Assembly (NCBI RefSeq): GCF_030407435.1
Contig: NZ_JASDDK010000003.1
Span: 124,001-188,000 of the forward strand
DNA: 64,000 nt
DNA from: Winogradskyella bathintestinalis
GTDB taxonomy: Bacteria > Bacteroidota > Bacteroidia > Flavobacteriales > Flavobacteriaceae
Direction of reading: 5' to 3'
The translations under genes and the position numbers were made by a program. Below the pieces are notes generated by a model. That model was not told the origin of the DNA, ran no database searches, and worked only from the letters and a program-made list of their open reading frames with translations. This document shows positions 34,820-54,126 of the stretch, piece by piece; position 1 is the stretch's first letter; the number at the start of each line of letters is the position of its first letter.

Positions 34820-36436
34820 ATGCTCCAAGGTAAAAATAATTGGTGCTCTAGAATGATACATAAAATCCCTTGTTTTTATAAAAACATACGCTCAATTTGC
34901 TTTTGGGTTTGTCTTACTTTGGCATATTTTAGTCATTCACAAGAAAATGATCTCATTATTAAAGCACGCGAATTAGTGTATTCAGATCCTGATGAATCTA
35001 TTAAAATAGCTAAGCATTTATTAAATACTAGTCAACATTCGCAGCAAAAAGTGCTATCAAATATTTTAATTTCTGAAGCTCAAATAGTAAAGGGGAATTA
35101 TCATCAGGCTGTAATTTATGCATTTGATAAGCACAACTTGTCAGAATCCATTAGTGAAAATACTCAGATAGATTTAAATCTTCTCAAGGCCCAACTCCTA
35201 AGGCGTATATATTTAGACGAACAGGCTCAAAAGTATTTAGAAATTGGGCAATCATTAGTAGAAAAGTTACCTCAAAATACTTATAAAGATTCTATACGTA
35301 AATTAATAAGATTAGAACAAATCTATACGGATATTAATAGGCGAAACAATAATAAAGCCTTAAGGTCAATCAAAGATACGGAAGTCGAATTCGGCAAGTT
35401 TTTAAAAAACAATTCAATTGATAAACAAGCCTTGTACTTCGCGAAAGTTAGGGTCTACAACAAATTATCTAAGCACGACTCTACTAAAATTTATATCGAA
35501 AAAACTTTGGGTTTAGTTAATACTTCATCAATAAGCAACCTCTATTTAAAAGCTCTAATTTATAAAGAATTAGGAAATCTGCAACTGCAGCAAAAGGAAT
35601 TTAAGGAAAGTGAAGAGTCCCTTTTTATAGCTTCAAAATTTGCTGAAATATTAGACAACCCAATGCTTTTAATGGGATTAAATAGAGATCTTTCAACGAA
35701 TTATTTGGCGTCCGGGCAAAATATAAAACACAAAGTATTTAACGATAAGTATTTAACTTTAAATGCTGAGGTTGAGCGAACGGAGCAATTAGCTGTGAAT
35801 ACTTTGTATACTATGCTTTCGAATCAAGAAGAAGATGTTTTGAATGCAGAAAAACAAACCCATAACAATTACTTATATCTATTAATAGCTGGTTTTGTTG
35901 GTGTCTTGGTTATTGGTAGTTATATGGTTTTAAAAGGAGAAGCTAAAAAAAAGCGACATAAGGAAATTATTAGCTATTTAGAAATCGTTAGAAATAATGA
36001 AATTAAAACCAAACCAAGTAAAAAAGCAAGACCAAAGCGCATTGCTATACCTCAAGAAACGGAACAACTCATTCTGTCTAAGTTAAAACGATTTGAAAGT
36101 TCTAAAAAGTTCTTAAATAAAGATATTTCATTAGCTGTACTGGCCGGACAATTTGACACGAATACCAAATATCTTTCGGGTGTTATTAATAAACATTACG
36201 ATGATAATTTCAACACCTTTATAAATAAACTTCGTGTTAATTATGTGATCGATAAATTAAAAAACGATTCAAATTATATTAATTATAAAATTAGTTTTTT
36301 AGCTGAAGAAAGTGGCTATTCTTCTCATAGTAGTTTTGCTACGGTTTTTAAATCTATTGTGGGTATGTCTCCAGTTACTTTTATAAAATTGATTCAGAAG
36401 GAACGTGCTGAATTAAAAAAGAAAAACATTACTTAG
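34820..36436 (+). CDS. Membrane-bound TPR protein with AraC-type DNA-binding domain
   Basis: A 538-aa one-component regulator. An N-terminal hydrophobic segment (SICFWVCLTLAYFSHSQ, about 30-47) acts as signal or anchor, then about 280 residues of tetratricopeptide-like helices (for example LYLKALIYKELGNLQLQQKE, SEESLFIASKFAEILDNP), a transmembrane helix (YLYLLIAGFVGVLVIGSYMV, about 353-372), a basic linker, and a C-terminal AraC/XylS helix-turn-helix domain (about 425-530: DISLAVLAGQFDTNTKYLSG ... ISFLAEESGYSSHSSFATVF, KSIVGMSPVTFIK). The TPR part would face the periplasm and the DNA-binding part the cytoplasm. It is immediately followed, with zero spacing, by a second TPR gene. Confidence 0.9.
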   Translation: MLQGKNNWCSRMIHKIPCFYKNIRSICFWVCLTLAYFSHSQENDLIIKARELVYSDPDESIKIAKHLLNTSQHSQQKVLSNILISEAQIVKGNYHQAVIYAFDKHNLSESISENTQIDLNLLKAQLLRRIYLDEQAQKYLEIGQSLVEKLPQNTYKDSIRKLIRLEQIYTDINRRNNNKALRSIKDTEVEFGKFLKNNSIDKQALYFAKVRVYNKLSKHDSTKIYIEKTLGLVNTSSISNLYLKALIYKELGNLQLQQKEFKESEESLFIASKFAEILDNPMLLMGLNRDLSTNYLASGQNIKHKVFNDKYLTLNAEVERTEQLAVNTLYTMLSNQEEDVLNAEKQTHNNYLYLLIAGFVGVLVIGSYMVLKGEAKKKRHKEIISYLEIVRNNEIKTKPSKKARPKRIAIPQETEQLILSKLKRFESSKKFLNKDISLAVLAGQFDTNTKYLSGVINKHYDDNFNTFINKLRVNYVIDKLKNDSNYINYKISFLAEESGYSSHSSFATVFKSIVGMSPVTFIKLIQKERAELKKKNIT

Positions 36437-37756: not shown

Positions 37757-40700
37757 ATGAAATTTGAGTCACAACCCTCCCAAATTACTAATAGCTTTTT
37801 TTCATTCGGTCAGTATATAAATCCAAAATTTTCTAAACATAATTCAAAAGACAAGAACTTGAGCGTCGTCTTTATTTTAGTTTTTACCATATTTTTTATT
37901 AACCAAAGTTTTGCACAACTTACCGAGAATTTTGATAGTGGTATTCCCAGCACTTGGACGCTTATTGATAATGGAGTAGGAACCCTAAACTGGTCGGCAA
38001 CGACGGATGGTTACTTAGGAACGAACGGCACCTCGATAAATCTAAGCGCAGATAATATTGGAGACCAAAATACGGCGCAATATTTTATGGTAACTCCACA
38101 GATATCTGTTCCTGTAAATGGTGAAATACAATTTTACACCAAACAAGCCAATGAAGCTGATAATGGTGCGCAGTACGAAGTAAGACTTTCTACAGCTGCA
38201 CAACCCGACGTCAATGGTTTTAATATCCCACTCCAAACTTATACAGAAGCCAATTTAAATAATGGTGCACAAACCAATTATGAAAAAAAGGTTATTGAGA
38301 TACCCACCTCAATTCCTCCAGGATTGGATATATATATAGCATTCGTAGCTATAAATACACAAAACGGTGCCACGCCAATAGGAGATGAATGGTTTGTAGA
38401 TAATGTGTCCATATTAGAAGGTTGTACGGAAATTGATGAAGAAGATGTGTCTGTTGATGATATTACCGTTAGTGGAGCAGAAGTAATATGGTCGCATCCA
38501 ACGGCAACAAATTTTGAAATTCAAATTTTACCGGTTGACGGAGTGCCTGCAAATAGTGGGATTCCTGTGTCTGGTTCTTCATACACCTTGTCTAACCTAG
38601 ACGAAGACACCGAATTTGACATCTATATTTCTGCCATTTGTGATAATGATACTCAAAGTGAGTTTACAGGGCCTTATACGTTTAAGACCTTAAAATTTGG
38701 ACTGTCGTGTGAAGCTCCTATTGAAATTCCAGATATTTCGACTACACCTTATGTTTTTCAAGATAATTTGGACCAATGGGCAAATCCTGATGTATCTTAT
38801 TCTACACAAGGTGCCAATTGTATTTCGGGTACATCGACCAATAACTATTTAAATGGAAATAAAATATTCTTTAGTTATACTCCTGCACAGGATGGCTTAA
38901 TCTCATTAACCCAAACAACGTTTACACAAGCGGGTGGTGGCGAGGACAATTGTTTTAACACTAGAAGTTCATTATTTGTTTATGATAGTTGTGCCGATGT
39001 TGGCGTAAATTGTTCAGCAGGTATAATTACCTTAAGCGCATTCGATCCTAAAACCATTTCTAATTTACTGGTTGAAGCTGGACAAACTTATATTATAGTC
39101 GTGTCCTCTGAATTGTCGGCATCAGCAGGTATATGCTTTGAACTTGAAGTTACGGCACCAACTTGTGCACCTCCAAGTGAAATTACTTATAGCAGTTTAA
39201 CCGATAATAGCGTTAATTTTTCTTGGGATAATATTGGTGGATTTGCAGATTCTTGGGAATATATGGTAGTACCAACAGATTCTGGTGAGCCTACAGGTAC
39301 AGGAACAGCAACCAGTACTAACATGAATAACAGTATCAATACAGGTCTCGCACCAGGAACCACTTACGATATGTATGTAAGAGCGGTTTGCGACGGTTCA
39401 CCAGGTATTTGGAGCGATCCTTCTACTTTTACGACCCAATGTACAGTTTTTGATACTCCTTATGCAACTGACTTTGATGATGCCACCCCTGTCAATCCTG
39501 AACCGTGCTGGACAACTATTGATGCTAATGGAGATGGAACATCATGGTCTTTCATTGGAGGCTATGCTACCGTAAGAACCAATTTGGCACAGTATGAAAA
39601 CCATGATCTCTATGTGTCGCCTCAAATTACTTTCGATGGTTCACCAAAACGATTAAAATATAAATATAGAGCAACACAAGGCTCATCAACATACTCCGTA
39701 AGGTTATCTACAACGGGAGTTGGAGTGGATGAATTTACTACCGTTGTTGTACCAGAAACTACCATTAGCAATACAGGCTTCATTGAAAATATGGTTGATT
39801 TTCCCGAAGGTATTACTGGAATTGTTAATGTCGCTTTTATTGTAGAACCTAATTCTACCGAAACAGCATTACGCTTTTCAATAGATGATGTGGTCATTGA
39901 AGATAAGCCATCTTGTCCAGATCCAATTGATCCTTATGTGTTAAATTCAAGTATAACAACGAACTCGGCTTGGTTTATTTGGGATGCAGGTGAGAATGAA
40001 ACGCAATGGCAAGTTGCGATACAAGATCAAGATTCAGGAATTCCTACTGGTGATGGAATTATAGTTGATAATAACGCGCCATATATGGCTACGGATTTAA
40101 TGCCAGGTACACGTTATGAATATTATGTTAGAGCTTATTGTGCTGCGGATGATCAAAGTCAATGGGTAGGACCAGTTCCTTTCATAACACTATGTGAGTC
40201 TTATGATACGCCATTTTTTGAAAGTTTTAATGATCAGGATCCTGATACTCAAAAATTTTGTTGGAATACCGACAATGGAGCATGGGTTATATCCGAAAAC
40301 ATAGCTGAGATATCAGGAAGTGGTCATAATGCTTATTTAATTTCTCCACAAATAAATATGGATGGAGTAAAAGAGTTGAAATTCAAATATAGAGCAGAAA
40401 TTGGTTTTATTTTAGGAAATTTAATTCCGCCTCGTGCAGGTTTGGAAGTCCTAATGTCAACAACAAATACCAATGCTGGTAGTTTTTCTGTAATTTCTCC
40501 TTTTGAAGTATTTACCCATTCTGGTTATATTGAAAAATCAATAATTATCGAACATAATGGTCCAATTTATATAGCTTTTAGAGTGCCACCTGCGTTTACT
40601 GGAAATGCTTCAACCTTAAATATTGATGACGTAAGAATTACTGATCCGCCTGAATGTCCTAATCCTTCAGATTTAATGGTTGATACAGTCCTAACGGACG

Positions 40701-43700
40701 GAGCAGATTTATCGTGGTCGGCAGGATATCTAGAAACCGCATGGAATGTTGTGGTACAGCCAGTAGATTCTGGAGTGCCAACGACAGATGGCGTTCCGGT
40801 TACAACAAATAGTTATTCGGCAACAGGTTTGGATTCAGATACCGAATACGAGTTTTATGTCATGGCTAATTGTGCCAATGGTGATAGTCAATGGATGGGA
40901 CCAGTAACGTTCCGTACAACCTGTCCTCCGTTTACAACACCATTTGTGGAAACATTTAATTACGATTCCACATCAGAAAGTTGTTGGACCGTAATTGATA
41001 ATAATGCCGATTTAGATACTTGGGAATTGGATAGTGGTGCATTTCCTTATGAAGGTGATCAAGCAGCAGCCATGTTTACAGGTCATAATGGGCAAAATGA
41101 GGATTGGATGATCTCTCCAACCATAACCATTACAGAAAATCAGCGTTTACGTTATTATTACAGGGTAAATGATAGCTTTTTTACAGAAGATTTAGAAGTA
41201 TTATTGTCCACTAATGGTATTGGTTTGGACCAATTCACAACGGTGCTTTATGATAATGATAACGACACTGAAATAATAAACAACGTAGAATATAAAGTAA
41301 AAATAATTAATCTTCCCGCAGGTATTGTTGGTGATGTTAATATTGCATTCCGTGTACCATTTTTTGCAAGCTCAGGACCATACAGAGGTCAGACTTTAGT
41401 AATAGACAATATTAATATTGAGGATATTCCAGAATGTGCCGAAGTTACTAATGTTACCTTAAATAACCTTACTGATACTGGAGTACAAGTCAGTTGGGAT
41501 GAAAACGGTTCAACCGCACCTTGGGAAATTTCGGTACAACCTTCAGGAACTGATGCGCCCGTTGGTGACACGGATCCAGAATATTTGTATAGTGCGACAT
41601 CAAACCCGTTTACAGTTACTGGGCTTACCGCATCAACGATGTATGATATTTATGTAAGGTCAGTTTGTGATGGCAGTGAAAGTGAATGGACAGAAGCAGA
41701 AGTAGTAACCACCAAATGTAGTTTTGAAAACCTATGTCAATATACATTTAAACTTTTTAGTGATTCTGATATCTCATCAACATTAGATATTACCCAGAAT
41801 AATCAAGTAACGCAATCATTAGAGTTTACTGGTGTAGAAGATGGAGAGTCTTATAATGTATTGTTATGTTCAGGTGTTGAGTTTTCATTGTATTTTGATA
41901 CGATTGGTACATCTGCACCACAGTACGAAAATTATTCATTTGAAATTACGGATGATGATGGAACAGTAGTTTATACAAGCACAGAAGCTTTATTGCCAAG
42001 AACGACAGTCTATTCTGGTTATTCATCTTGTGGCGATCTTTCTTGTCCAGAGCCAACAGATTTATCTATTACGGATACTTCAGTGATGTCTTGGACACCA
42101 GGTGGCAGTGAAACCCAATGGGAAGTCGCTATCCAACCTGTAGGTAATGGAACTATTCCTCAGTCTGGAACATTGGTTTCTACAACTTCATATACACCAG
42201 TTGTATCTGATTTTAGTGATCCCTTCGCTGTAACTTACGAGTATTTTGTGAGGGCTGTGTGTGGCACTGATGATGAAAGTTTTTGGTCGGGACCGTATGT
42301 GTTTGTTCGAAATGATGATATCACTAACGCGGTAACTTTACCAATCAATGCTACAGAGGTATGTACAGAATCTTCCATGGATGTTTCCTTTATTAATACA
42401 ACGTTTTCATCGGAAGCCATGAGTTGTGACGTAACAAACGGAGGAGATATTTGGTTCGATTTTACGGCAGAATCTTTAATCCATATTTTTGAAATAAATA
42501 GTTTCACAGGAAATTTAAGAGGTGAAGCTAACCAACAATCACCTTACCCAGAAATTACCATGACCTTATATAAGGACAATGGAGCAGGAGCTCTAGTTGA
42601 AATGGCTTGTACATACGATAAGGTTCTTGTTGCCATGTATGCCACTGAATTAGTTGTTGGTGATAATTATAAATTACGATTAACACTTGATGGAACTGAG
42701 GAAAATCTATATAGATTCAGTCTATGTGCTAAAACACCAGAAGACCTTTGTGATTTTAACATGGCCGTTAATGGTGGTTTTGAATCACCAAACATTGCAG
42801 GTCTAAGTGGTGTAAATACCATAGTTTCATTGAGAACCGTACCAGGATGGCGACAAAATATGCCAGAAAGAAATGCTGTTTTTATGTGGGAATCGTTAAA
42901 TGCTCCAGGATTTGTTCCTTATGAAGGTGGTCAAGTACCACAGGTTTTATCAGAGCAGATTCCGGTAAGCCCAGATGATATGGATATTAAAGGACTTTAT
43001 AGGGATTTTGACACTTCTGAAGCCACTTTATTAAATTACAGTTTTGCTCATTATGCAAGGTTTCCGGACAATTCTATGCAATTATTAGCTGGTCCTCCAG
43101 AAGGGCCTTTTGTATCTTTGGCCGAACATGTAGGTGATCAATCTTGGCGTATAGTTTCTGGCGACTATGAAGTGCCAGAAGGACAGGACGTCACCCGTGT
43201 TTTCTTTAGGGCTTATGGTGAAGATACCGTAGGAAATCTTATAGATGCCGTAAGTTTTGTAGCTAACAATGAAATTATTACGGAGCCATTTACCGTAGAT
43301 TGTGATAATACAAATGCAAATGTTGAAGCCAATGGTACTGGTACTTGGATTCCAAGTGATTCTAATCCAGGAACGGCTTCAATTACAGATGCCAACAGCA
43401 ACACCACTTCGATAACTAACTTCACCCAACCTGGTGTTTATACCTTTACATGGCAAACTTTATATTGTGCTTACGACATAGAAATCACTTACAATGGTAT
43501 TGCAGAGACACCAGAAGTAGAAAGTCCTGTGGAATATTGTTTAGGAGATACTGCAGAACAATTGACAGCTTCAACTTCTGATGCCTACAATTTAATGTGG
43601 TTTACACAAGCAACAGGGGGAACTGGTAGTGCAATTGCACCAACGCCAGATACATCAGTTGTGAATACAACTTCATATTATGCCGCTTATGTAGATGCTG

Positions 43701-45064
43701 AAGGTTGTGAAGGTCCTCGAGCAGAAATTCAAGTTGTGGTTAGTGAATCGTTTACTCCAGAATTGATTTTTACTTATGACGATACATGTGTTGTGGCAAC
43801 CGAAAACCCTTCACCTATGTTTGTAGATGGTTTTGCTACAGGCGGAATGTTTTCTTCAACAACATTAACTGTAGATGCTACAACAGGTGTTATTGATATC
43901 TCTTCAGCTTCAACAGGTCAACATAACGTAATATACACTTTTGATGGAAATGAAGAGTCCTGTACTTCCGCAGGTTCTTTTATGGCAACCATAACATTTA
44001 CTTCGGGATCAGCTCCTATTACGGTTTTTAATTATGGAACCACGGATTATTGTGTATTATCAACAGAGACAATTAACCCAACTTTGGCGAATAACTTTAC
44101 AACAGGAGGTACATATAGTGCTACAACATTAACGGTTAATGAAGCTACTGGTGCCATTGATTTATCTAACGCTACAGTTGGGAGTCATGAGGTAACATAT
44201 ACAGTTGAGGCCAATGCTGCAACATGTTCGGATTCAGGATCATCTGTTACTACTGTTCAAATTATAGCGAGTACAAGTCCAGTTACGGAATTCACTTTTG
44301 CCGAAGATATATATTGTGCAGATAGCAACTTTATACTTCCAGAAATGGTTGCTGGTTTTACAACAGGAGGTTTATTTAGTGCTACAGATGGTTTAGCTAT
44401 CAATGGGAATACTGGTGAAATTGATGTCACATCAAGTGCTGTTGGAAATTATGATGTTACCTACGAAATTGCAGAGGATGTTTCAAATTGTGTTGAAGCT
44501 TCCACAGGAACATTCAATATTACGATATTAGATGCTATAGAAGTTGCTATTGGTGGAGGCTGTGATGGTTCTGATTATAAATTAACGGCATCACCTGTAA
44601 ACAATTCCTTCAACACCAATGAAGCTACTTACACTTGGAAAGATGTTAATGGCAATACGGTTGGTCAGAATTCAGAAGACTTTAATGTTACCAATTATTC
44701 GAATTTAAATCCAAATGTAACAGCACCATTGCAGTTTTCTTTAACTGTAGATTTTGGAGGTTGTTCTACTACAACTTCATATACCACCGAACGTTTAGCC
44801 TGTGGAACGATACCTCAAGGTATTTCGCCAGATGGCAATAATAAGAACGATACGTTTGATCTGACAGGTTATGGCGTTAATTCGTTAATTATTTTTAACC
44901 GTTATGGAACCGAGGTGTTTAAACATAGTGGCACTTATACCGATCAATGGTTTGGACAAACAAACAATGGAGATGAATTGCCAGACGGCACTTATTTCTA
45001 CAGTATTGAGAAAGAAGATGGAGAAGCTATAACTGGATGGGTTTATATCAACAGAGCACAATAA
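37757..45064 (+). CDS. Giant T9SS type B adhesin with FN3 modules (gliding-motility-type C-terminus)
   Basis: A 2435-aa cell-surface protein. The N-terminus is unusual: about 34 polar residues precede the hydrophobic signal (LSVVFILVFTIFFINQSFAQ, to about 54). Then come alternating fibronectin-III-like and jelly-roll modules. FN3 units begin near residues 222, 470, 720, 966, 1226 and 1429, about 250 apart, each starting with a Cys-Pro phrase and containing TEYEFYVxAxC. Further beta-domains follow near 1525 and 1664, then three tandem ~88-residue repeats (about 1997, 2085, 2173; each with FTTGGxxSATT). The last ~85 residues (GISPDGNNKNDTFDL, IIFNRYGTEVF, LPDGTYFYSIE) are the CHU_C/gliding-motility-associated type B sorting domain. 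No enzyme domain is seen. PorP/SprF follows after 28 nt. Confidence 0.93.
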   Translation: MKFESQPSQITNSFFSFGQYINPKFSKHNSKDKNLSVVFILVFTIFFINQSFAQLTENFDSGIPSTWTLIDNGVGTLNWSATTDGYLGTNGTSINLSADNIGDQNTAQYFMVTPQISVPVNGEIQFYTKQANEADNGAQYEVRLSTAAQPDVNGFNIPLQTYTEANLNNGAQTNYEKKVIEIPTSIPPGLDIYIAFVAINTQNGATPIGDEWFVDNVSILEGCTEIDEEDVSVDDITVSGAEVIWSHPTATNFEIQILPVDGVPANSGIPVSGSSYTLSNLDEDTEFDIYISAICDNDTQSEFTGPYTFKTLKFGLSCEAPIEIPDISTTPYVFQDNLDQWANPDVSYSTQGANCISGTSTNNYLNGNKIFFSYTPAQDGLISLTQTTFTQAGGGEDNCFNTRSSLFVYDSCADVGVNCSAGIITLSAFDPKTISNLLVEAGQTYIIVVSSELSASAGICFELEVTAPTCAPPSEITYSSLTDNSVNFSWDNIGGFADSWEYMVVPTDSGEPTGTGTATSTNMNNSINTGLAPGTTYDMYVRAVCDGSPGIWSDPSTFTTQCTVFDTPYATDFDDATPVNPEPCWTTIDANGDGTSWSFIGGYATVRTNLAQYENHDLYVSPQITFDGSPKRLKYKYRATQGSSTYSVRLSTTGVGVDEFTTVVVPETTISNTGFIENMVDFPEGITGIVNVAFIVEPNSTETALRFSIDDVVIEDKPSCPDPIDPYVLNSSITTNSAWFIWDAGENETQWQVAIQDQDSGIPTGDGIIVDNNAPYMATDLMPGTRYEYYVRAYCAADDQSQWVGPVPFITLCESYDTPFFESFNDQDPDTQKFCWNTDNGAWVISENIAEISGSGHNAYLISPQINMDGVKELKFKYRAEIGFILGNLIPPRAGLEVLMSTTNTNAGSFSVISPFEVFTHSGYIEKSIIIEHNGPIYIAFRVPPAFTGNASTLNIDDVRITDPPECPNPSDLMVDTVLTDGADLSWSAGYLETAWNVVVQPVDSGVPTTDGVPVTTNSYSATGLDSDTEYEFYVMANCANGDSQWMGPVTFRTTCPPFTTPFVETFNYDSTSESCWTVIDNNADLDTWELDSGAFPYEGDQAAAMFTGHNGQNEDWMISPTITITENQRLRYYYRVNDSFFTEDLEVLLSTNGIGLDQFTTVLYDNDNDTEIINNVEYKVKIINLPAGIVGDVNIAFRVPFFASSGPYRGQTLVIDNINIEDIPECAEVTNVTLNNLTDTGVQVSWDENGSTAPWEISVQPSGTDAPVGDTDPEYLYSATSNPFTVTGLTASTMYDIYVRSVCDGSESEWTEAEVVTTKCSFENLCQYTFKLFSDSDISSTLDITQNNQVTQSLEFTGVEDGESYNVLLCSGVEFSLYFDTIGTSAPQYENYSFEITDDDGTVVYTSTEALLPRTTVYSGYSSCGDLSCPEPTDLSITDTSVMSWTPGGSETQWEVAIQPVGNGTIPQSGTLVSTTSYTPVVSDFSDPFAVTYEYFVRAVCGTDDESFWSGPYVFVRNDDITNAVTLPINATEVCTESSMDVSFINTTFSSEAMSCDVTNGGDIWFDFTAESLIHIFEINSFTGNLRGEANQQSPYPEITMTLYKDNGAGALVEMACTYDKVLVAMYATELVVGDNYKLRLTLDGTEENLYRFSLCAKTPEDLCDFNMAVNGGFESPNIAGLSGVNTIVSLRTVPGWRQNMPERNAVFMWESLNAPGFVPYEGGQVPQVLSEQIPVSPDDMDIKGLYRDFDTSEATLLNYSFAHYARFPDNSMQLLAGPPEGPFVSLAEHVGDQSWRIVSGDYEVPEGQDVTRVFFRAYGEDTVGNLIDAVSFVANNEIITEPFTVDCDNTNANVEANGTGTWIPSDSNPGTASITDANSNTTSITNFTQPGVYTFTWQTLYCAYDIEITYNGIAETPEVESPVEYCLGDTAEQLTASTSDAYNLMWFTQATGGTGSAIAPTPDTSVVNTTSYYAAYVDAEGCEGPRAEIQVVVSESFTPELIFTYDDTCVVATENPSPMFVDGFATGGMFSSTTLTVDATTGVIDISSASTGQHNVIYTFDGNEESCTSAGSFMATITFTSGSAPITVFNYGTTDYCVLSTETINPTLANNFTTGGTYSATTLTVNEATGAIDLSNATVGSHEVTYTVEANAATCSDSGSSVTTVQIIASTSPVTEFTFAEDIYCADSNFILPEMVAGFTTGGLFSATDGLAINGNTGEIDVTSSAVGNYDVTYEIAEDVSNCVEASTGTFNITILDAIEVAIGGGCDGSDYKLTASPVNNSFNTNEATYTWKDVNGNTVGQNSEDFNVTNYSNLNPNVTAPLQFSLTVDFGGCSTTTSYTTERLACGTIPQGISPDGNNKNDTFDLTGYGVNSLIIFNRYGTEVFKHSGTYTDQWFGQTNNGDELPDGTYFYSIEKEDGEAITGWVYINRAQ

Positions 45065-45092
45065 TCATAAACGAAAATAAAGTAATTTACAG

Positions 45093-46028
45093 ATGAAAAA
45101 AATATATTTCACAATCGCTTTCGCACTTATGATTATAGTAAGTGTTAGTGCACAGCAAGATCCACAATATACGCAGTATATGTATAATATGAATGTTGTA
45201 AACCCAGCTTATGCTGGTTCTAAAGAAGCCTTATCCATCGGATTATTATACAGATCACAATGGGTTGGTATTACAGACGCACCAAAAACGGGAACTCTGG
45301 CGGTTCACAGTCCTATAGGTAAAAATGTAGGTTTGGGACTATCGGTAATCTCAGATAAAATAGGACCCGTTGAAGAAAACAACGTCTTTGCCGATTTTTC
45401 ATATACCTTAAATTTAGGAGGTGAACATCGATTGGCTTTTGGGCTTAAAGCCGGAGCTACGTTTCACAACATAGGCTTGTTTAGCGATATAGGAAATGGC
45501 TTTGTGCCAGACGCAGGTGATGAAGCCTTTAGCGAAAATACAAGCAATACGTATTTGAATATTGGATCAGGTGCCTTTTATTATACGGATAAATATTATG
45601 TGTCTTTATCGGTACCAAATATGCTAAAAAGTACTTATTTAGATGTAACGAATAACGGCCAGGAAATCAACTACGGATCAGAGGTTTTGCATTATTTTCT
45701 TTCTGCAGGTTATGTGTTCGATTTGGCGGCCAACACAAAATTTAAACCTTCATTTTTATTAAAATCAGCTTTTGGTGCACCAACATCTTTAGATCTTTCA
45801 GCAAACTTCTTGTTTTATGATAAGTTTGAAGTTGGAGCCACCTACCGTTTGGATGATTCGGTCGGTGCCATGGCAAATTTTGCGGTAACACCAGATATAA
45901 GAATTGGGTATGCCTACGATTACACAACCTCAGACCTTAATATAAAATCATCGGGTTCACATGAGGTCATGTTATTGTTCGACTTAAATTTTGCCAAAAA
46001 AGTATCCATTTCACCTCGATTTTTCTAA
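45093..46028 (+). CDS. PorP/SprF-family outer-membrane protein
   Basis: A 311-aa protein with signal peptide (MKKIYFTIAFALMIIVSVSAQ) and the family hallmark QDPQYTQYMYNMNVVNPAYAG directly after it, then YRSQWVGITDAPKT and repeated barrel strands (GLGLSVISDKIGP, LAFGLKAGATFHN, ILIGYAYDY-like IRIGYAYDYTTS), ending in FSPRFF-like SISPRFF with the C-terminal aromatic expected of an outer-membrane barrel. SprF-type proteins are required for secretion or attachment of type B cargo in gliding flavobacteria. The gene lies 28 nt after the 2435-aa type B adhesin and 18 nt before the OmpA-like gene, which fits a dedicated partner. Confidence 0.95.
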   Translation: MKKIYFTIAFALMIIVSVSAQQDPQYTQYMYNMNVVNPAYAGSKEALSIGLLYRSQWVGITDAPKTGTLAVHSPIGKNVGLGLSVISDKIGPVEENNVFADFSYTLNLGGEHRLAFGLKAGATFHNIGLFSDIGNGFVPDAGDEAFSENTSNTYLNIGSGAFYYTDKYYVSLSVPNMLKSTYLDVTNNGQEINYGSEVLHYFLSAGYVFDLAANTKFKPSFLLKSAFGAPTSLDLSANFLFYDKFEVGATYRLDDSVGAMANFAVTPDIRIGYAYDYTTSDLNIKSSGSHEVMLLFDLNFAKKVSISPRFF

Positions 46029-46046
46029 CATTCTAAACATATTAAA

Positions 46047-47921
46047 ATGAAAAATATATATCGTCTTTTAAGCTTGTTTTTAGTAATTACGTATTCAAGT
46101 TTCGGACAAAATAAACACACAGAAAAAGCAGATAAACTTTACAATGGCTATCAATATGTTGACGCTATTGAAGCTTATCAAAAAATTGTTGCCGATAATG
46201 AGGCAGATACCTATGTCTATAAGCAATTAGCGGATAGTTATTATAAAATATTTAATATAGCAGAAGCTTCAAAATGGTATAAAAAAGCATTGGAAAACAA
46301 TCAAGATGCGGAAACCCATTTTCGCTATGCACAAGTTCTAAAATCGCAAGGTGAGTATGATGCTGCCAATAAACGAATGGATGTATTCGCAAAAATGAAT
46401 CCAGAAGATGTACGTGCAAAGGCGCATTTAAAAAATCCTAATTATATGCCACAATTAGCTGATATTTCTAAAACATTTAATGTTGAAAAAGTTGACATCA
46501 ATGACGACAAGCAGAGTGATTTTGGCGCGGTGCTATCTAATGACAATATCCTATATTTTGTAAGCACAAGAAAAACATCAGGAAAAGAAGACGCATGGAC
46601 TAATCAACCTTATTTGGATATTTATAAATCAGTGAGAAATGATGATGGTACATTATCAGATCCTGAAGACGTTGAAGATTTAAACACAATGTTTCATGAT
46701 GGTCCTATATCGATTACTGCAGATGGAAAAACCATGTATTTTTCGAGAGATGGCCATACCGAAGGGTTTTTTAAGAAGAACAAGAAAAAACGTATAAAAG
46801 TTGCGCAACAAGGTATTTATAAAGCGACTTTAATTGAAGGCAAATGGGAAAATATTAAAGCCTTACCAATAAATAGTAAGGATTATACGGTAAGTCACCC
46901 AAGTATAAGCAGCGATGGTAAAACCCTTTATTTTGCGTCAAATATGCCAAGTGGGTTTGGAGATACCGATATCTGGAAAATAAGTGTCAATGAGGATACA
47001 TACGGAGAACCCGAAAATTTAGGGCCACTTGTAAACACTTCAGGCAAGGAAGGCTTTCCCTATATAAGCGAAGATAGAATATTGTATTTCGCTTCAAGTG
47101 GACGACAAGGTTTTGGGGGACTGGATATTTTTAAATTTGATGTAAATGAAAATAAAGAAGCAGAAAATTTGGGAAACGCACTAAACACTAAAAGAGACGA
47201 TTTTGCTTTTAGTGTGAACAATACATTTAAAGTCGGTTATTTTTCTTCAAACAGATCTGGAGTTGATAATATTTATATAGCCACTCCTATTTGCCAGTTT
47301 CAAACTGTAACTATGGTCAAGAATGCAGAATCTGGTGCTGTTTTGTCTAATGCAAATGTTACGATATTAGATGGACAGCTTAATGAAATGGCTTCAAAAA
47401 GATCCGATAAAAACGGTAAAGCAAGCTTTAATGTCAGTTGCGATAACACTTATACGCTACATGTGTCGATAGATGGTTATGAATCAGGTTCTTTTAAAGT
47501 TGAAAAGTCCGATGGAAAAGAAGTGATCGTCAACGCAAATTTAAAGCCTATAAATGAAATGATTACGGATACCGAAGTAAAATTGAACAACATTTACTTC
47601 GAATTTAATAAAAGTAATATTACTAATCGGGGAGCATTGGAATTAGACCGATTGGTAGAAGTCATGAAAGATCATCCAGATATGAAAATTTTGGTAAGAT
47701 CGCATACCGATTCTAAGGGAAGTGCGGATTACAACTTGAAACTTTCTGATAAGAGAGCACAGTCAACCATGCAATATTTAATTTCTCAAGGCATCAATGC
47801 TGATCGATTATCTGCAAAAGGTATGGGACAGACGGATCCGAAAATAGATTGTAAATCTGATTGTACCGAAGACGAGGATGCACAAAATAGACGTTCCGAG
47901 TTTTTAATTGTTACAAAGTAA
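46047..47921 (+). CDS. PorE-like OmpA-family protein (TPR, propeller, OmpA domain)
   Basis: A 624-aa envelope protein with signal peptide ending SSFGQ. Domains: TPR-like helices (about 20-115: ADKLYNGYQYVDAIEAYQKI), a WD40-like/PD40 propeller (about 145-395: SDFGAVLSNDNILYFVSTRK, DGKTMYFSRDG, DGKTLYFASNMPSGFGDTDI, GRQGFGGLDIF), a carboxypeptidase-regulatory-like domain (about 410-490), and a C-terminal OmpA domain (about 505-620: IYFEFNKSNI, VRSHTDSKGSADYNLKLSDK, RLSAKGMGQTDP, NRRSEFLIV) that should bind peptidoglycan. This order matches PorE of the T9SS. It has no lipobox. Its position directly after PorP/SprF supports a role in anchoring the type B secretion or attachment complex to the cell wall. 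Confidence 0.92.
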   Translation: MKNIYRLLSLFLVITYSSFGQNKHTEKADKLYNGYQYVDAIEAYQKIVADNEADTYVYKQLADSYYKIFNIAEASKWYKKALENNQDAETHFRYAQVLKSQGEYDAANKRMDVFAKMNPEDVRAKAHLKNPNYMPQLADISKTFNVEKVDINDDKQSDFGAVLSNDNILYFVSTRKTSGKEDAWTNQPYLDIYKSVRNDDGTLSDPEDVEDLNTMFHDGPISITADGKTMYFSRDGHTEGFFKKNKKKRIKVAQQGIYKATLIEGKWENIKALPINSKDYTVSHPSISSDGKTLYFASNMPSGFGDTDIWKISVNEDTYGEPENLGPLVNTSGKEGFPYISEDRILYFASSGRQGFGGLDIFKFDVNENKEAENLGNALNTKRDDFAFSVNNTFKVGYFSSNRSGVDNIYIATPICQFQTVTMVKNAESGAVLSNANVTILDGQLNEMASKRSDKNGKASFNVSCDNTYTLHVSIDGYESGSFKVEKSDGKEVIVNANLKPINEMITDTEVKLNNIYFEFNKSNITNRGALELDRLVEVMKDHPDMKILVRSHTDSKGSADYNLKLSDKRAQSTMQYLISQGINADRLSAKGMGQTDPKIDCKSDCTEDEDAQNRRSEFLIVTK

Positions 47922-48119
47922 CAACCAAATATAACGATATTAACAGGCAAATTTTTTTTAGAAAAGATTTGAATCATATACTTTTATATCAATTGATGAT
48001 TGATAAAAATTGAATTTTAGTTTCTATAAAAAAGTAAAACACAACAGACAAGACTTTGACCTTTTAAAAAATTAGAAGCATTAAAGTCAGTTTGTTAGGC
48101 AGATGCATAAAAATAATAA

Positions 48120-51100
48120 ATGAAGAAGATTTTACTCTTAATAATTTGTATAGTACTTTTTTCAAACCTACAAGCACAAGAACCAAATGATTGTATTGAT
48201 GCTGTAGTAATATGTGGTAACGGTACATTTTCATCTAATGCAACAGGATCTGGTGATGATTTTGAGATCAACGGTTGTGGAGGTTTTGAGCATAACTCAT
48301 TGTGGTTAGAAGTAAATATAGTTCAGGCAGGGACTTTAGGCTTTAATCTCATTCCTGATGATCCAGACATTATGGTCGATTATGATTTCTGGGTATTCGA
48401 GGCGAATAGCGTGTGTTCTAGTTTGGGGCCTATAATCCGTTGTGCCACTACAAACCCAAATGCAGCAGGACTTTCCGATAACCGAACAGGAATTAATGGA
48501 AGTACAACGTTAACCCAAACAGGACCTGGTGCTAATGGAAATGGTTATGTCTATTGGTTAAATGTCGAAGTCGGCGAATCTTATTTTATCGTTATTGATA
48601 GACCAGCAGGTGAAGGTGGATTTCAGTTGGAATGGACAGGAACAGCTACAGAAGGCACTGGAGCTTTTCCCGCTCCACCAGAAGCTAATGAAATTGAAGA
48701 TGTTAAGCAATGCAGCAGTAATCCAGATATTGCTGTATTCAATCTTGACGGTTTAAAACCGAGTATCAATGCAGAATCAGATATTACCATAGACTTCTAC
48801 GAGACAATTGCGGACGCCACAGACGATATTAATGAATTACCTGGAATATACGCTAATACTGACAATCCGCAGCAAATCTATGCCAAAGTAAAATCTGGAG
48901 TCACCGATTGTTATACTTTAGTTGATTTTAATTTAGTGGTTACACCGATCCCTACAGCTGCAGTAGTAGCGTCGAGTGCCGCCATTTGTGAAGGAGAAGA
49001 AGTGATATTTACCATCACGGCTACACCAGATTCTATGGTGCGTTATAATATAAATGGTGGCACAACGGAAGAAATTATTATTGATAATACAGGTACGGCG
49101 ACCTTAGTTCAAAACCCAACCATAGATACGGTATTTAATCTAGAGGATGCACAAATTTTGAGTGCAACAGATACTGTAGTTTGTTCCCAGGTATTGACCG
49201 ACATGGCTTCGGTCACCGTAAGTTCCAATACAGCACCAACCATAGTTAATAATTCGCCAATTTGTGAAGGAGATGATGGTGAGCTACAGTTTTCAGGTGA
49301 TCCTAATGCCACAATTTCTTATGCTATAGAAGGTGGGGTTACTCAAAACTTTAATTTAGATGCCTTAGGAAATTTCACGCTAACACTGCCTGCATTAAAC
49401 ATCAATACTAGTATTGAAATTATTTCAGTAACCAGTGCAGCACCATCTAATTGTGAACAGATCTTAAATATTTCGGAAAGCATTATGGTGAATTCGTTGC
49501 CAACCGTTATAGATCCAGAGCCTTTATTGGCATGTGATAATGGAATTAATCCTAATTCCGCACCATTTAATTTAGACGATCAAAGTGCAGCTATTTCCAA
49601 TAACGCACCCAATGTTACAGTTACTTATTACGCTACACAGTTTTTAGCCGAAGCAGGAAATACAACTGATGCTTTGACATCTCCATATAATAGCATTTCC
49701 CCGAATCAAATTATTTTTGTTCGTGTTGAAAGCGATTTGGGATGCACCGCATTTACTACAATGAGCTTACAAGTTGTTGGCGCACCCATTGCTAATACGG
49801 CTACAGCTTTAATATCATGTGACACGAATAATTTAGGAATCGGAACTTTTGATTTAACTCAAGCCGAAGCTGAGGTCATCGCAGGAAACACATTTACTGT
49901 TCAAGTTTCTTATTTTATGTCATTGGCAGAAGCCGATGCGGGAATGCCTTTCATTACAGACCCAACGGCATTTGAGAATACAGATCCTTATAACCAAACC
50001 GTTTATGTTCGTGTTGATACTGATGCTAATGGAACTGATTGTTATAACACGTCTACATTAAATTTAGAAGTATTCGATACTCCAATTATTACCACTCCAG
50101 AAGCACTTGAAACTTGTGATGATGCTAGCAACGATGGTTTGGCATCATTTAATTTGGATGATCAAACACCAATAATATTAAATGGGGCGACTGGAATTAC
50201 TGTAACGTATCACGAATCACAAACCGATGCAGAAAACAATGACGGTTCTCTTCCAAGTTTATATACGAATGATAGTAACAATCAAACCATATATGTTCGT
50301 GCAGAAAATGATCTGAACACTGATTGTTTTACAACTACCACTTTCGATCTTATAGTGAACCCGCTTCCAACCTTAATAGCGGCAACACCTTTAGAAGTCT
50401 GTGATGACGGAAATCCAGATGGTCTTACTGAAATGGATCTGAGTATTAAAAATGCTGAAATAACAGGAAATAATCCCAACTATTCGGTAAGTTATTATGA
50501 AACTATAGCAGATGCAATTTCAGAAACAGATGCGCTGCCAACGTTATATACTAACACCAGCAACGGACAAATTCTACAGGTCCGTGTAGAAAATACCATT
50601 ACGGAATGTTTTAATTTTTCAACTTTAGAACTGCTTGTACAACAAGCACCGGTGGCAAACGATCCGACACCTTTAGATTTCTGTGATCCCGATAGCGATG
50701 GTTTCGGAACCTTTGACTTAACGAGTAAGGATGATGAGATAACAGGTGGCGATGCGACATTAACGGTTAGTTACCACGAAACGATGGCAGATGCCGATAA
50801 CAACGTCAACCCAGTATCAAGTCCTTACAATAATATTGTGATAAACTCGCAAACACTTTATGCTCGTGTGGAAAGTTCCACGATTTCTACGGATTGTGAT
50901 ACCATAGTGACCATGGAGATTATTGTTAACCAAACACCACAGTTGGGAGGTACAGCACCCGAACCTTTTGAGATTTGCGATGACAGCTCAGTAGATGGTT
51001 ATGGGCAGTTTGACCTTACGAGCAAAGTTTCTGAGATTCTTCAGAATATAGCAGACCCAACATTATATACCGTATCATTTTATCTGAACGAAACCGATGC

Positions 51101-54071
51101 GGATGAGGCATTAAATGCTATAATGAATGAAACGAACTATACTAATAGTGATGATTTTAATCAAACTTTATGGGTTAGGGTAGAAGATAATGTATCAGGC
51201 TGTTATAAATTGACAACATTAGAGTTACTCGTAAATCCAATTCCTATATTGGTTCAAACCGTACCTTTAATGCTTTGTGATGATAATAATCCGGGTGATC
51301 AAATTGAAGCCTTCACGTTGGAAGATGCTTCAAATGAAATACTCAACGGGCAATCTGGCATTGATTTAACGTATTTTGAAACACAAGCTGATTTAGATGC
51401 TGATACCAATCCGCTTTCAAGTCCTTATGAAAATATCGAAAACCCACAAACTATATTTGTAAAAGCGATCAATTCTGAAACTGGTTGTGTTAATACATCA
51501 TTATTAACATTACGGGTAAGGCCAATTCCGTCCCCAACAGCCCCAATGGATTTAGAACTCTGCGACGATGATGCAGATGGATTTACCGAATTTAATTTAG
51601 AAGATAGAACCATTGAAATTATGGGCGGGGAATTAGATATTGAAATAACGTATCACGAAACTCTAGAAGATGCCAATACTGGCAGCAATGCTATTGCAAG
51701 TCCATATACCAATATTGTAATTGATGAACAAACCATTTATATCCGAGCCACTAACACTGTAACAGGTTGTTATGATATTTCCAAAACAATGACTATTCGT
51801 GTTTTAGAAATACCACAAGCACCAAATAATATAGAACCATATACTATATGTGATACAGATGCCAATGGTTTCGCACAATTTGATTTGACTTTAAAAAATT
51901 CAGAAATTATAGGAAATCAAACCGATGTTAATCTAACCTATCATATTTCACAGGCTGATGCATTATTAGGAAATAATCCGATATCAACCCCTGCAAGTTA
52001 CACTAATACTGCTAATCCACAGACCATTTTTGTTCGTTTGAAAAACGATAATAACGTTTGTTCTGATTTAGGTTCTTTCGAAATTAGCGTAGAGTTACCA
52101 CCAGAAGCCATACAGCCATCACCATTGGAACTATGTGATGATGACATTGCCGATGAAATTACGACATTTAACCTGACCGTTAAAAACGATGAAATCACAG
52201 GAGGTGAAGGGAGCTGGAGTGTTGCTTATTATGAAACATTGGCTAATGCACAAGATGAAACCGATGCTGTAAATGCAGAAGCTTATACCAACACAGCCAT
52301 AGGTACTGCGGAAGCCAATCCACAAACCTTAATCGCTGTTGTAACTGATACTGATACGGGTTGTACGGATATGGTTACACTGACCATCCGCGTAATACCT
52401 AACCCAACACCAACAGCGCTATTGCCAGATTTGGAATTATGTGATGTTGAAAATACTGGAGATATGGAAGAGGTATTTGATTTAACGACCAATGAACTTT
52501 TAGTGTTCAATGGGGAAGCAAATGTGTCCGCAAGTTATTACGATAGCTACCAAGCAGCAGAGATAGGACTCGATGCCATAACTGATCCTACACAGTTTCA
52601 AAATACAAGTACTCCTCAACAAATTTATATACGTGTTGCCAACAACATTACTGAATGTTTTACTATTGTGGATTTTACTTTAATCGTTAATCCATTGCCA
52701 GAAGTGGTTGCAATCACGGATTTTATACAATGCGAACTTTTTACCGACGGCATCGCCAATTTTGACTTGAAGACCAAAGACGCCGAAGTATTGAACGGAC
52801 AGGATCCCTCACAATTTATAGTGAGTTACCATGAAAGTCAAACCGATGCGGATGAAGGCATGAACGCCGTGGTAAGTCCATATATCAACACCATGAACTT
52901 GCAAACAATCCATGTAAGGATTACCAATAGCGATACCGAATGTTTTGTTAGCTCACAGCTGTTTACGCTCGAGGTTCAAGAAGCAGCGCAGGCCAATCCT
53001 AATATGGATGCGATACTTTACGAGACATGTGATGGCAATATGGAAACGGACGGTAATCCAGCCAACGACAGTGCACAATTTAATTTAGCAATAAAAGACA
53101 CAGAGGTGTTAGACGGCCAAAATCCATTAAATTATATGGTGACTTATTATGCTACCGAAGATGATGCAAATAATAATGTCAATCCATTACCAACCTTGTA
53201 TGAAAATGTAGTAAATCCACAAGTGATCTATGCAAGGGTGGATAATGATACGCCAGATACAATAACAGGAGAGGACACGTCCATTTGCTATGCTTTAGCC
53301 GAAATAACGCTGAAAGTCAGTCAGTTGCCAGAATTCGACTTGGATGATAGTTATACCTTGTGTGTAAACACGAACGGTAGTGAAGTTTTGGATACATTGG
53401 TTATAGATACGAACTTGTCTGCAACGGACTATAGTTTTGTGTGGTATTTTAATGAAACAGAACTGAAAGGTGAGACTGGACCGAGTCTAATGCCCAGCCA
53501 AGGAGGTACGTATCGTGTCGACGTTACCAATTTGATTACCAATTGTTTTAATACGGATAGCGCAGAGGTACACGAAAGCGGCCCTCCAAACATTTCCGTT
53601 ACTCTACTATCACAAGCTTTTGCGGATAACCATGTTATAAAAGTGGAAGTGATATCGGGAGATGAATTTGGTGATTATGAATTCAGTCTCGATGATGGCC
53701 CATGGCAAGATGAAACCTTATTTAATAGCGTATCACCAGGCCAGCATCATATCATAGCAAGAGACAAAAACGGCTGTGGTTCTACTACCGAATCCGTATT
53801 TATCATTGATTACCCGTTATATTTTACGCCTAATGGAGATGGCCAGAACGAAACATGGAATATCGATGGTATCGATGGTTCTGCAAAAATCTACATCTTT
53901 GATCGTTACGGAAAGCTGTTGAAGCAGATAAGTCCCACAGGTTTAGGCTGGGACGGTATATATAATGGTAATGCTATGCCAACTAATAGTTATTGGTTTA
54001 CAGTAGAATATAACGAGCCTTTGACTGGAGAACGTAAAGAATTTCGAGCGTATTTTACTTTGAAGCGGTAA
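48120..54071 (+). CDS. Giant T9SS type B repeat adhesin (gliding-motility-type C-terminus)
   Basis: A 1983-aa surface protein. Signal peptide MKKILLLIICIVLFSNLQAQ, a PPC-like N-terminal domain (about 20-185: EPNDCIDAVVICGNGTFSSN), then about 14 repeats of about 90-110 residues up to about 1780. Each has the layout CDD...DG...FDL...EI.G, VTYHET..DA, a PYTN.....QTIYVRVEN, ..T.C, and a linking L.V.P.P. The first repeat is degenerate and is followed by two Ig-like inserts. A last Ig-like part and the type B sorting domain (YFTPNGDGQNETWNIDG, IYIFDRYGKLLKQI, GNAMPTNSYWFTVEY) close it. The many aligned Asp residues suggest Ca2+ binding. It is 198 nt downstream of the PorE-like gene and ends at a strong terminator. 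Confidence 0.93.
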   Translation: MKKILLLIICIVLFSNLQAQEPNDCIDAVVICGNGTFSSNATGSGDDFEINGCGGFEHNSLWLEVNIVQAGTLGFNLIPDDPDIMVDYDFWVFEANSVCSSLGPIIRCATTNPNAAGLSDNRTGINGSTTLTQTGPGANGNGYVYWLNVEVGESYFIVIDRPAGEGGFQLEWTGTATEGTGAFPAPPEANEIEDVKQCSSNPDIAVFNLDGLKPSINAESDITIDFYETIADATDDINELPGIYANTDNPQQIYAKVKSGVTDCYTLVDFNLVVTPIPTAAVVASSAAICEGEEVIFTITATPDSMVRYNINGGTTEEIIIDNTGTATLVQNPTIDTVFNLEDAQILSATDTVVCSQVLTDMASVTVSSNTAPTIVNNSPICEGDDGELQFSGDPNATISYAIEGGVTQNFNLDALGNFTLTLPALNINTSIEIISVTSAAPSNCEQILNISESIMVNSLPTVIDPEPLLACDNGINPNSAPFNLDDQSAAISNNAPNVTVTYYATQFLAEAGNTTDALTSPYNSISPNQIIFVRVESDLGCTAFTTMSLQVVGAPIANTATALISCDTNNLGIGTFDLTQAEAEVIAGNTFTVQVSYFMSLAEADAGMPFITDPTAFENTDPYNQTVYVRVDTDANGTDCYNTSTLNLEVFDTPIITTPEALETCDDASNDGLASFNLDDQTPIILNGATGITVTYHESQTDAENNDGSLPSLYTNDSNNQTIYVRAENDLNTDCFTTTTFDLIVNPLPTLIAATPLEVCDDGNPDGLTEMDLSIKNAEITGNNPNYSVSYYETIADAISETDALPTLYTNTSNGQILQVRVENTITECFNFSTLELLVQQAPVANDPTPLDFCDPDSDGFGTFDLTSKDDEITGGDATLTVSYHETMADADNNVNPVSSPYNNIVINSQTLYARVESSTISTDCDTIVTMEIIVNQTPQLGGTAPEPFEICDDSSVDGYGQFDLTSKVSEILQNIADPTLYTVSFYLNETDADEALNAIMNETNYTNSDDFNQTLWVRVEDNVSGCYKLTTLELLVNPIPILVQTVPLMLCDDNNPGDQIEAFTLEDASNEILNGQSGIDLTYFETQADLDADTNPLSSPYENIENPQTIFVKAINSETGCVNTSLLTLRVRPIPSPTAPMDLELCDDDADGFTEFNLEDRTIEIMGGELDIEITYHETLEDANTGSNAIASPYTNIVIDEQTIYIRATNTVTGCYDISKTMTIRVLEIPQAPNNIEPYTICDTDANGFAQFDLTLKNSEIIGNQTDVNLTYHISQADALLGNNPISTPASYTNTANPQTIFVRLKNDNNVCSDLGSFEISVELPPEAIQPSPLELCDDDIADEITTFNLTVKNDEITGGEGSWSVAYYETLANAQDETDAVNAEAYTNTAIGTAEANPQTLIAVVTDTDTGCTDMVTLTIRVIPNPTPTALLPDLELCDVENTGDMEEVFDLTTNELLVFNGEANVSASYYDSYQAAEIGLDAITDPTQFQNTSTPQQIYIRVANNITECFTIVDFTLIVNPLPEVVAITDFIQCELFTDGIANFDLKTKDAEVLNGQDPSQFIVSYHESQTDADEGMNAVVSPYINTMNLQTIHVRITNSDTECFVSSQLFTLEVQEAAQANPNMDAILYETCDGNMETDGNPANDSAQFNLAIKDTEVLDGQNPLNYMVTYYATEDDANNNVNPLPTLYENVVNPQVIYARVDNDTPDTITGEDTSICYALAEITLKVSQLPEFDLDDSYTLCVNTNGSEVLDTLVIDTNLSATDYSFVWYFNETELKGETGPSLMPSQGGTYRVDVTNLITNCFNTDSAEVHESGPPNISVTLLSQAFADNHVIKVEVISGDEFGDYEFSLDDGPWQDETLFNSVSPGQHHIIARDKNGCGSTTESVFIIDYPLYFTPNGDGQNETWNIDGIDGSAKIYIFDRYGKLLKQISPTGLGWDGIYNGNAMPTNSYWFTVEYNEPLTGERKEFRAYFTLKR

Positions 54072-54090: not shown

Positions 54091-54126
54091 AAACTGGATG
54101 ATAAAATGATCATTCAGTTTTTTTTT
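54091..54126 (+). terminator. Terminator of the adhesin cluster
   Basis: aaactggatgat (54091-54102) and atcattcagttt (54109-54120) pair along 12 bp with one G-U, with a 6-nt loop and a run of nine T residues (54118-54126). It lies 20 nt past the adhesin stop. Confidence 0.92.

Follow-up and report, generated by a model that had tools for sequence, protein, structure and literature searches.

In the window, a stretch of 64,000 nucleotides from the genome of Winogradskyella bathintestinalis (3.83 Mb, 35 contigs), four + strand ORFs encode proteins of 2435, 311, 624 and 1983 aa with intergenic gaps of 28, 18 and 198 nt (Table 1); an ORF check reproduced these values as the original prediction had given them. 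The first and last are giant adhesins, here called A1 and A2, and between them stand a PorP/SprF carrier and a PorE-like protein. The original prediction regarded these four genes as a self-contained surface-attachment module. A module conserved in several genera is found, but the four-gene extent does not hold, and the locus is better described as a six-gene unit of AraC-type regulator, TPR protein, A1, PorP/SprF, PorE-like protein and A2. A homolog of the regulator sits upstream in many A2-bearing loci, and the TPR protein has a hydrophobic stretch close to its C-terminus, as judged by eye, and no HTH match in the domain search. Upstream of the unit, positions 31511-34525 encode a 1004-aa T9SS type A cargo protein (Por_Secre_tail, GBD_T9SS_assoc, fn3), a homolog of which stands just before A1, in place of the TPR protein, in the congener G011.

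Table 1. Genes and sequence features of the locus, in window coordinates
Feature	Position	Strand	Basis and remarks
AraC-type regulator, 538 aa, HTH_18	34820..36436	+	PF12833 38.6 bits; heads the conserved unit
TPR protein, 381 aa	36437..37582	+	TPR_12 74.5 bits; begins immediately after the regulator
Adhesin A1, 2435 aa	37757..45064	+	ORF and domain searches
A1 sorting domain (CTD)	44810..45049	+	CHU_C, residues 2352-2431; class from tree; protein ends WVYINRAQ
PorP/SprF carrier, 311 aa	45093..46028	+	PF11751 296.7 bits, TIGR03519 275 bits; tail ..SISPRFF
PorE-like protein, 624 aa	46047..47921	+	TPR, PD40 propeller, CarboxypepD_reg and OmpA domains
OmpA-like domain of PorE-like protein, presumed peptidoglycan binder	47595..47861	+	PF00691 73.9 bits
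Adhesin A2, 1983 aa	48120..54071	+	ORF and domain searches
A2 N-terminal domain, residues ~20-190	48177..48689	+	Without Pfam match; kept across genera
A2 repeats, 14 of ~80 aa, residues 192 to 1712	48693..53255	+	Iterated profile
A2 sorting domain (CTD)	53805..54068	+	TIGR04131 104.6 bits; class by tree and nearest neighbour; protein ends AYFTLKR
Terminator-like stem-loop and T run	54091..54120	+	Hairpin scan of the region

The locus had been described as closed by one strong terminator. A hairpin is indeed present after A2, with a 12-bp stem followed by a T run, but it is plausible rather than strong, because the stem holds only 3 G-C pairs and such sites are not clearly commoner than chance (14 in the region, against 10.9, sd 3.1, in shuffles). 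None of the 14 sites falls in the 198-nt gap between PorE and A2. The corresponding gap ranges from 57 to 286 nt in 11 loci, none of which has a full match there to a Bacteroidetes promoter consensus, and sigma-70-like promoter matches in the region occur at chance (80 observed, 76.0 expected).

Domain make-up of the adhesins and the anchoring proteins

Both giants carry a type B sorting domain at the C-terminus, as originally stated: CHU_C scores 64.7 bits in A1 and 47.2 bits in A2, and the T9SS type B model TIGR04131 scores far higher in A2 than in A1, which passes only just (35.8 bits against a cut-off of 35). Besides its CTD, A1 has four choice-of-anchor-J stretches with fn3 and Ig_7. The repeats of A2, of which residues 267-465 are unmatched by the iterated profile, are of another kind. 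Since BLASTP of A1 against A2 matches at the C-terminus alone (29%, E 1.4e-5; next match E 1.2) and a search of A1 with the A2 repeat profile gives no genuine match, the two repeat architectures can be considered unrelated, in agreement with the earlier description. No match to the SprB repeat (PF13573) was found in A2. For the A2 N-terminal domain, a predicted model (mean pLDDT 67.4) gave weak Foldseek matches to various beta-sandwiches with TM to query below 0.3, and no fold is claimed.

The 311-aa protein is confirmed as a PorP/SprF family member by both family models. Its last 45 residues contain no cysteine, and hence no SprF-type C-terminal CxC motif. A predicted model built with 20 sequences (mean pLDDT 70.7) is rich in beta strands, and a fold search of the PDB returned chain F of 8gl6 as the best match and chain F of 6h3i as the seventh, with other outer-membrane barrels also matching; both entries are T9SS complexes, and we take chain F of each to be PorV. 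These matches of a predicted fold would fit a carrier role. A sequence search of the PDB with the same protein gave one match (E 0.15), which was taken as chance, so that it is the fold search that supports a barrel. The TPR-propeller-OmpA composition of the 624-aa protein was likewise recovered, with matches to TPR, PD40, CarboxypepD_reg and OmpA. It scores 365.9 bits against the PorE model NF052230 (curated cut-off 600) and 393.2 bits against NF053607 (curated cut-off 620), and because both best models fall below their cut-offs, "PorE-like" is the right wording. The best PDB sequence match of its OmpA domain is 6top_B (E 2.2e-20), which we take to be the P. gingivalis PorE domain, and the Asp and Arg columns, presumably those with a role in peptidoglycan binding, are aligned and kept. 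A lipobox pattern was absent from the first 45 residues of this protein and of seven others checked. With a type B CTD on the adhesin, PorP/SprF 28 nt downstream and a PorE homolog, A1-PorP-PorE has the sequence features of a static type B cassette, and would seem to be an ordinary one, already known in kind.

Conservation of the unit

The original prediction had proposed a gene-neighbourhood comparison in related genomes, and this comparison finds the six-gene arrangement recurring in Winogradskyella, Bizionia, Hanstruepera, Lacinutrix, Mangrovimonas and Flavobacterium. Named loci were sampled with PorP as the query, the best 79 of 565 relatives being taken, a choice that biases the sample to close relatives. 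Among these best 79 of 565, the A2 N-terminal domain is encoded immediately after PorE in 27; in the other 52 the following gene is unrelated (43), the locus ends there (4), there is no PorE (3), another body with an A2-class CTD follows (L163, Mesonia), or the next cassette begins (L201). Sequence upstream of A1 is available for 24 of the 27 A2-bearing loci, and a homolog of the TPR protein lies within two genes of A1 in 20 of these 24, the four without it all being Flavobacterium (L164, L165, L168, L210). By comparison, only one of the 29 A2-less loci of the same sample with more than 1500 bases before A1 has the TPR homolog (L148), and the genome of that locus (G078) has A2 on another contig.

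Among 59 congeners, the same 12 genomes have orthologs of both PorP (79-92% identity, next best 65%) and the A2 N-terminal domain (65-83%, next best 45%), and none has one without the other; a Fisher value on this joint presence is not a fair probability, because the genomes are related. Ten of the 12 have the four genes side by side, the contig stopping within A2 in two of these. The remaining two, G011 and G078, have an intact A2 (1987 and 1985 aa) away from the cassette. When 33 Winogradskyella genomes, comprising all 13 with the locus and 20 of the 47 without, are placed on a carrier-protein tree, the presence of the locus needs 7 changes; with all 47 rows there are 8 presence changes, at least 4 of them forced by starred branches.

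Several PorP loci met in these searches are of separate interest. Equal-score PorP copies recur every ~8.66 kb at G001:C1:605220-623440 (three) and G028:C1:1874313-1883883 (two, identical to each other), which looks like tandem cassette duplication. Flavobacterial-type PorP loci were also found on contigs titled as Bifidobacterium breve and Legionella MAGs (L169, L179), probably through binning errors, and two unannotated faecal "Bacteriophage sp." records (MT836089.1, MT839621.1), perhaps bacterial DNA, encode PorP-like proteins of 26-28% identity.

Sorting-domain classes and carrier tails

The genome of the window has 8 PorP/SprF matches, 19 CHU_C matches and 5 full-length PorE-like proteins, each PorE-like protein lying beside a PorP. 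The CTDs of A1 and A2 are 25% identical here and 27-34% identical in 10 genomes. The A1 CTD shares 30-50% identity with the CTDs of the other four PorE cassettes of its genome. For the A2 CTD, identity is 41-51% with seven orphan CTDs, 25% with an eighth (on contig C30) and 39% with the SprB CTD. At the low end of identity the classes overlap, as the A1 CTD is 30% identical both to SprB and to C12b of its own class. From 274 CTD-bearing ORFs, 189 distinct CTDs were obtained, and the 187 of at least 80 aa were used for a tree, which has few columns and several long branches flagged by the tool; one branch (SH-aLRT 99, length 1.63) splits 74 CTDs from 113. On the smaller side are all 19 CTDs adjoining CxC carriers, 54 orphans including all 11 labelled A2, and 1 unknown; the SprB CTD also falls on the A2 side. 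On the larger side are all 111 adjoining PorP-family proteins without a tail CxC, 3 of which have no PorE call, together with 2 orphans. In a nearest-neighbour control from which matches of at least 70% identity were left out, all 130 labelled CTDs were correctly called. The 21 A2-position CTDs listed, other genera included, all resemble the CxC class (46-96%) more closely than the other class (28-42%), and the 13 complete A2-position proteins of the 27 loci all have their CTD on the CxC side. By these sequence comparisons, the A1 CTD, which is among the tree rows labelled by their own neighbour, belongs to the class found beside carriers without tail CxC, mostly with PorE, and the A2 CTD to the class whose members either adjoin CxC carriers that have no PorE or have no adjoining carrier. 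At one further locus (L362, Flavobacterium sp. JAD_PAG50586_2), an adhesin with an A2-class CTD follows an A1-class adhesin and directly precedes a cysteine-less PorP accompanied by PorE, which shows the linkage of the two apparent classes recurring with another adhesin body.

Contigs C2 and C35 begin, and C17 ends, with the pieces most closely related to the A2 CTD in this genome. The piece on C2 is 84% identical to the A2 CTD over 75 aa, and its gene ends 6 bases before a CxC carrier (L097:235-1251), a 338-aa PorP/SprF family protein with the tail YECNCPAVN. In the seven genomes where both are readable, the A2 CTD is 67.6-96% identical to the CTD adjacent to the CxC carrier of the same genome, the highest value being that of G011. 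The likeness is 81.8% within genomes and 75.2% to other genomes, and the own-genome pairing is the sole one of 5040 permutations to reach that value; gene conversion or a constraint from a shared carrier would each produce such likeness. An ortholog of the CxC carrier (at least 71% identity) is present in 58 of 60 Winogradskyella genomes, the source genome included, and an ortholog with the CxC tail in 14 of 14 genomes of other genera, which were chosen because they carry the locus (in Mesonia, one of the 14, with a different A2 body). The tail has CxC in all 49 loci of this carrier that were read (46 distinct sequences). An A2-class CTD ends 5-8 bases before the carrier in Winogradskyella, where the contig reaches, in both Mangrovimonas and in Flavobacterium JAD_PAG50586_2; a search of the 500 bases upstream of it found no ORF with a CTD in Hanstruepera, Lacinutrix, Bizionia, Mesonia and five other Flavobacterium, and in F. 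rakeshii the contig begins so near the carrier that an upstream CTD is not readable.

The C-terminal pieces at the edges of contigs C2, C17 and C35 (L097, L099, L034) belong to giant A2-like adhesins and are near-identical, suggesting that the assembly was broken by at least two copies. Congeners assembled as single contigs have 2-4 matches to the C2-type CTD at scattered loci, two of those in G034 lying in short frames. Elsewhere in the source genome, six type B CTD proteins stand in a row on contig C30, which has no PorP (L096, G000:C30:151500-171400), and one 838-aa frame there shares the A2 N-terminal region at 43%.

A census of carriers in 8 genomes retained 61 of 72 PorP/SprF rows, leaving out 7 long-frame SprD-like proteins, 2 halves of a split gene and 2 weak matches, and gave 59 distinct carriers after 2 identical copies were dropped. 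Cysteine is absent from the last 30 residues of all 38 that adjoin a PorE, whereas the 21 without PorE comprise 14 with CxC, 6 with CxxC and 1 with neither. The six CxxC carriers (L321, L329, L337, L344, L351, L358) form a third class, whose adjoining adhesins end FVFI(K/R) or FVYIK; CxxC is not among the tails of the 8 PorP/SprF proteins of the source genome.

Carrier choice and comparison with known systems

How the destination of a type B adhesin, wall-fixed or gliding-track, is encoded is an open question on which several published studies bear. Five F. johnsoniae operons that combine an adhesin, an SprF-like carrier and a PorE homolog have been described, one of them with static foci (PMC12618676), as have six porP-like genes of that species beside porE-like genes (PMC9143113). 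In P. gingivalis, where PorE is a lipoprotein, a PorE-PorP-PG1035 complex was reported and PorE was proposed to serve immobile adhesins (PMC9143113). For the gliding track, the CxC of the SprF tail is reported to bond to GldK (PMC12635249). CTD-carrier specificity is strong in F. johnsoniae: one CTD was accepted by the carrier belonging to a CTD of 68% identity and not by those belonging to CTDs of 43% and 26% identity, a single orphan carrier serves three orphan CTDs (>44% identical), and competition structure prediction of CTDs against carriers is reported to pick true pairs (PMC12618676).

From these observations we infer carrier choice, adhesin mobility and co-regulation as follows. A1 would be exported by the type IX system, given its type B CTD, picked up by the neighbouring PorP and tethered to peptidoglycan through the PorE-like protein, making it a fixed adhesin. 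A2, co-inherited with the unit, would most likely be collected in trans by the CxC-tailed carrier on contig C2, whose tail cysteines could bond to GldK as reported for SprF. The locus would then display an adhesin fixed to the wall and another of the track class, perhaps both controlled by the one AraC-type regulator. We consider it about 70% probable that this is a two-adhesin unit with two carrier systems, A2 most likely using the CxC carrier of the genome in trans. For A2, "track" is less sure than "other carrier", because a reporter with the orphan-class CTD of Fjoh_1123 stayed static for the most part, foci moving in 3% of cells (PMC12618676).

The original prediction had both adhesins sharing one platform, the cassette PorP collecting A1 and A2 and PorE holding both to the cell wall. 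The tight linkage of A2 with the cassette across genera speaks for this, and one F. johnsoniae carrier can serve several CTDs (PMC12618676); L362, where a cysteine-less PorP comes straight after an A2-class CTD, keeps the model alive. Joint presence in 12 of 59 congeners would fit too, but was rejected as proof, since linked genes come and go together under either model. However, the two CTDs fall in different classes by tree and by nearest neighbour, their identity lies below the 43% at which published cross-handling failed (PMC12618676), the A2 CTD is much closer to the neighbour of a CxC carrier, and A2 stays intact away from the cassette in 2 of 12 congeners, so that sharing now looks unlikely. 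The description as self-contained becomes doubtful as well, because the likely carrier of A2 is encoded elsewhere; the two adhesins would probably have no common anchor, as the sorting tag of A2 points to that carrier.

The same separation in G011 and G078, together with the variable PorE-A2 gap, could instead mean that A2 is a mere neighbour, kept by inherited synteny with no functional tie to the cassette. The persistence of the arrangement in several genera, and the near restriction of the upstream TPR homolog to A2-bearing loci, the single A2-less exception belonging to a genome with A2 elsewhere, make this quite improbable. It is also conceivable that A2 is served not by the C2 carrier but by SprF, the SprB carrier on contig C31, which has a CxC tail and whose cargo CTD lies on the same side of the class branch; with the A2 CTD so much less like that of SprB (39%) than like the C2-adjacent one (84%), the chance of this is very slight. 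The two-carrier reading thus stays the preferred one.

The locus offers a natural side-by-side case, with one unit, two adhesins and CTDs of both classes. All but one of the 59 carriers counted in 8 genomes have either a tail cysteine pair or an adjoining PorE, and no carrier has both, which gives a simple sequence rule that predicts destination and is testable by the published F. johnsoniae reporter assays. A bolder proposal, tentative and held at less than even odds, is that one regulator deploys a wall-fixed "foot" and a track-riding "moving grip" and, more generally, that the two anchoring modes of the SprF family, PorE-peptidoglycan and tail cysteine pair-track, are mutually exclusive.

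Among the matches listed, no published description was found of a conserved static cassette joined to an A2-class adhesin; the A1 cassette is already known, and it is its conserved union with such an adhesin that was not found in print. An excerpt of a study of F. johnsoniae surface colonization (PMC10936215) has no such locus. Relative to the SprB/SprF gliding pair, the A2 CTD lies on the SprB side of the class branch, but it is only distantly similar and A2 is without the SprB repeat. The F. johnsoniae orphan case (Fjoh_1677) offers a likeness in arrangement: A2 is likewise without a carrier gene directly downstream and has a CxC carrier elsewhere, beside which no adhesin was found in several other genera. 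The orphan adhesin of the present locus differs in its tie to a static cassette. With the P. gingivalis PorE-PorP-PG1035 system (PMC9143113), the locus shares a type B protein, a PorP and a TPR-propeller-OmpA protein, but its PorE-like protein is without a lipobox and its cargo is a giant repeat adhesin. Closest by gene order is the F. johnsoniae static operon of Fjoh_3952 (adhesin), Fjoh_3951 (SprF-like) and Fjoh_3950 (PorE homolog), which matches A1-PorP-PorE (PMC12618676) and to which the present locus adds a second giant adhesin of the other CTD class, with a regulator and a TPR gene ahead.
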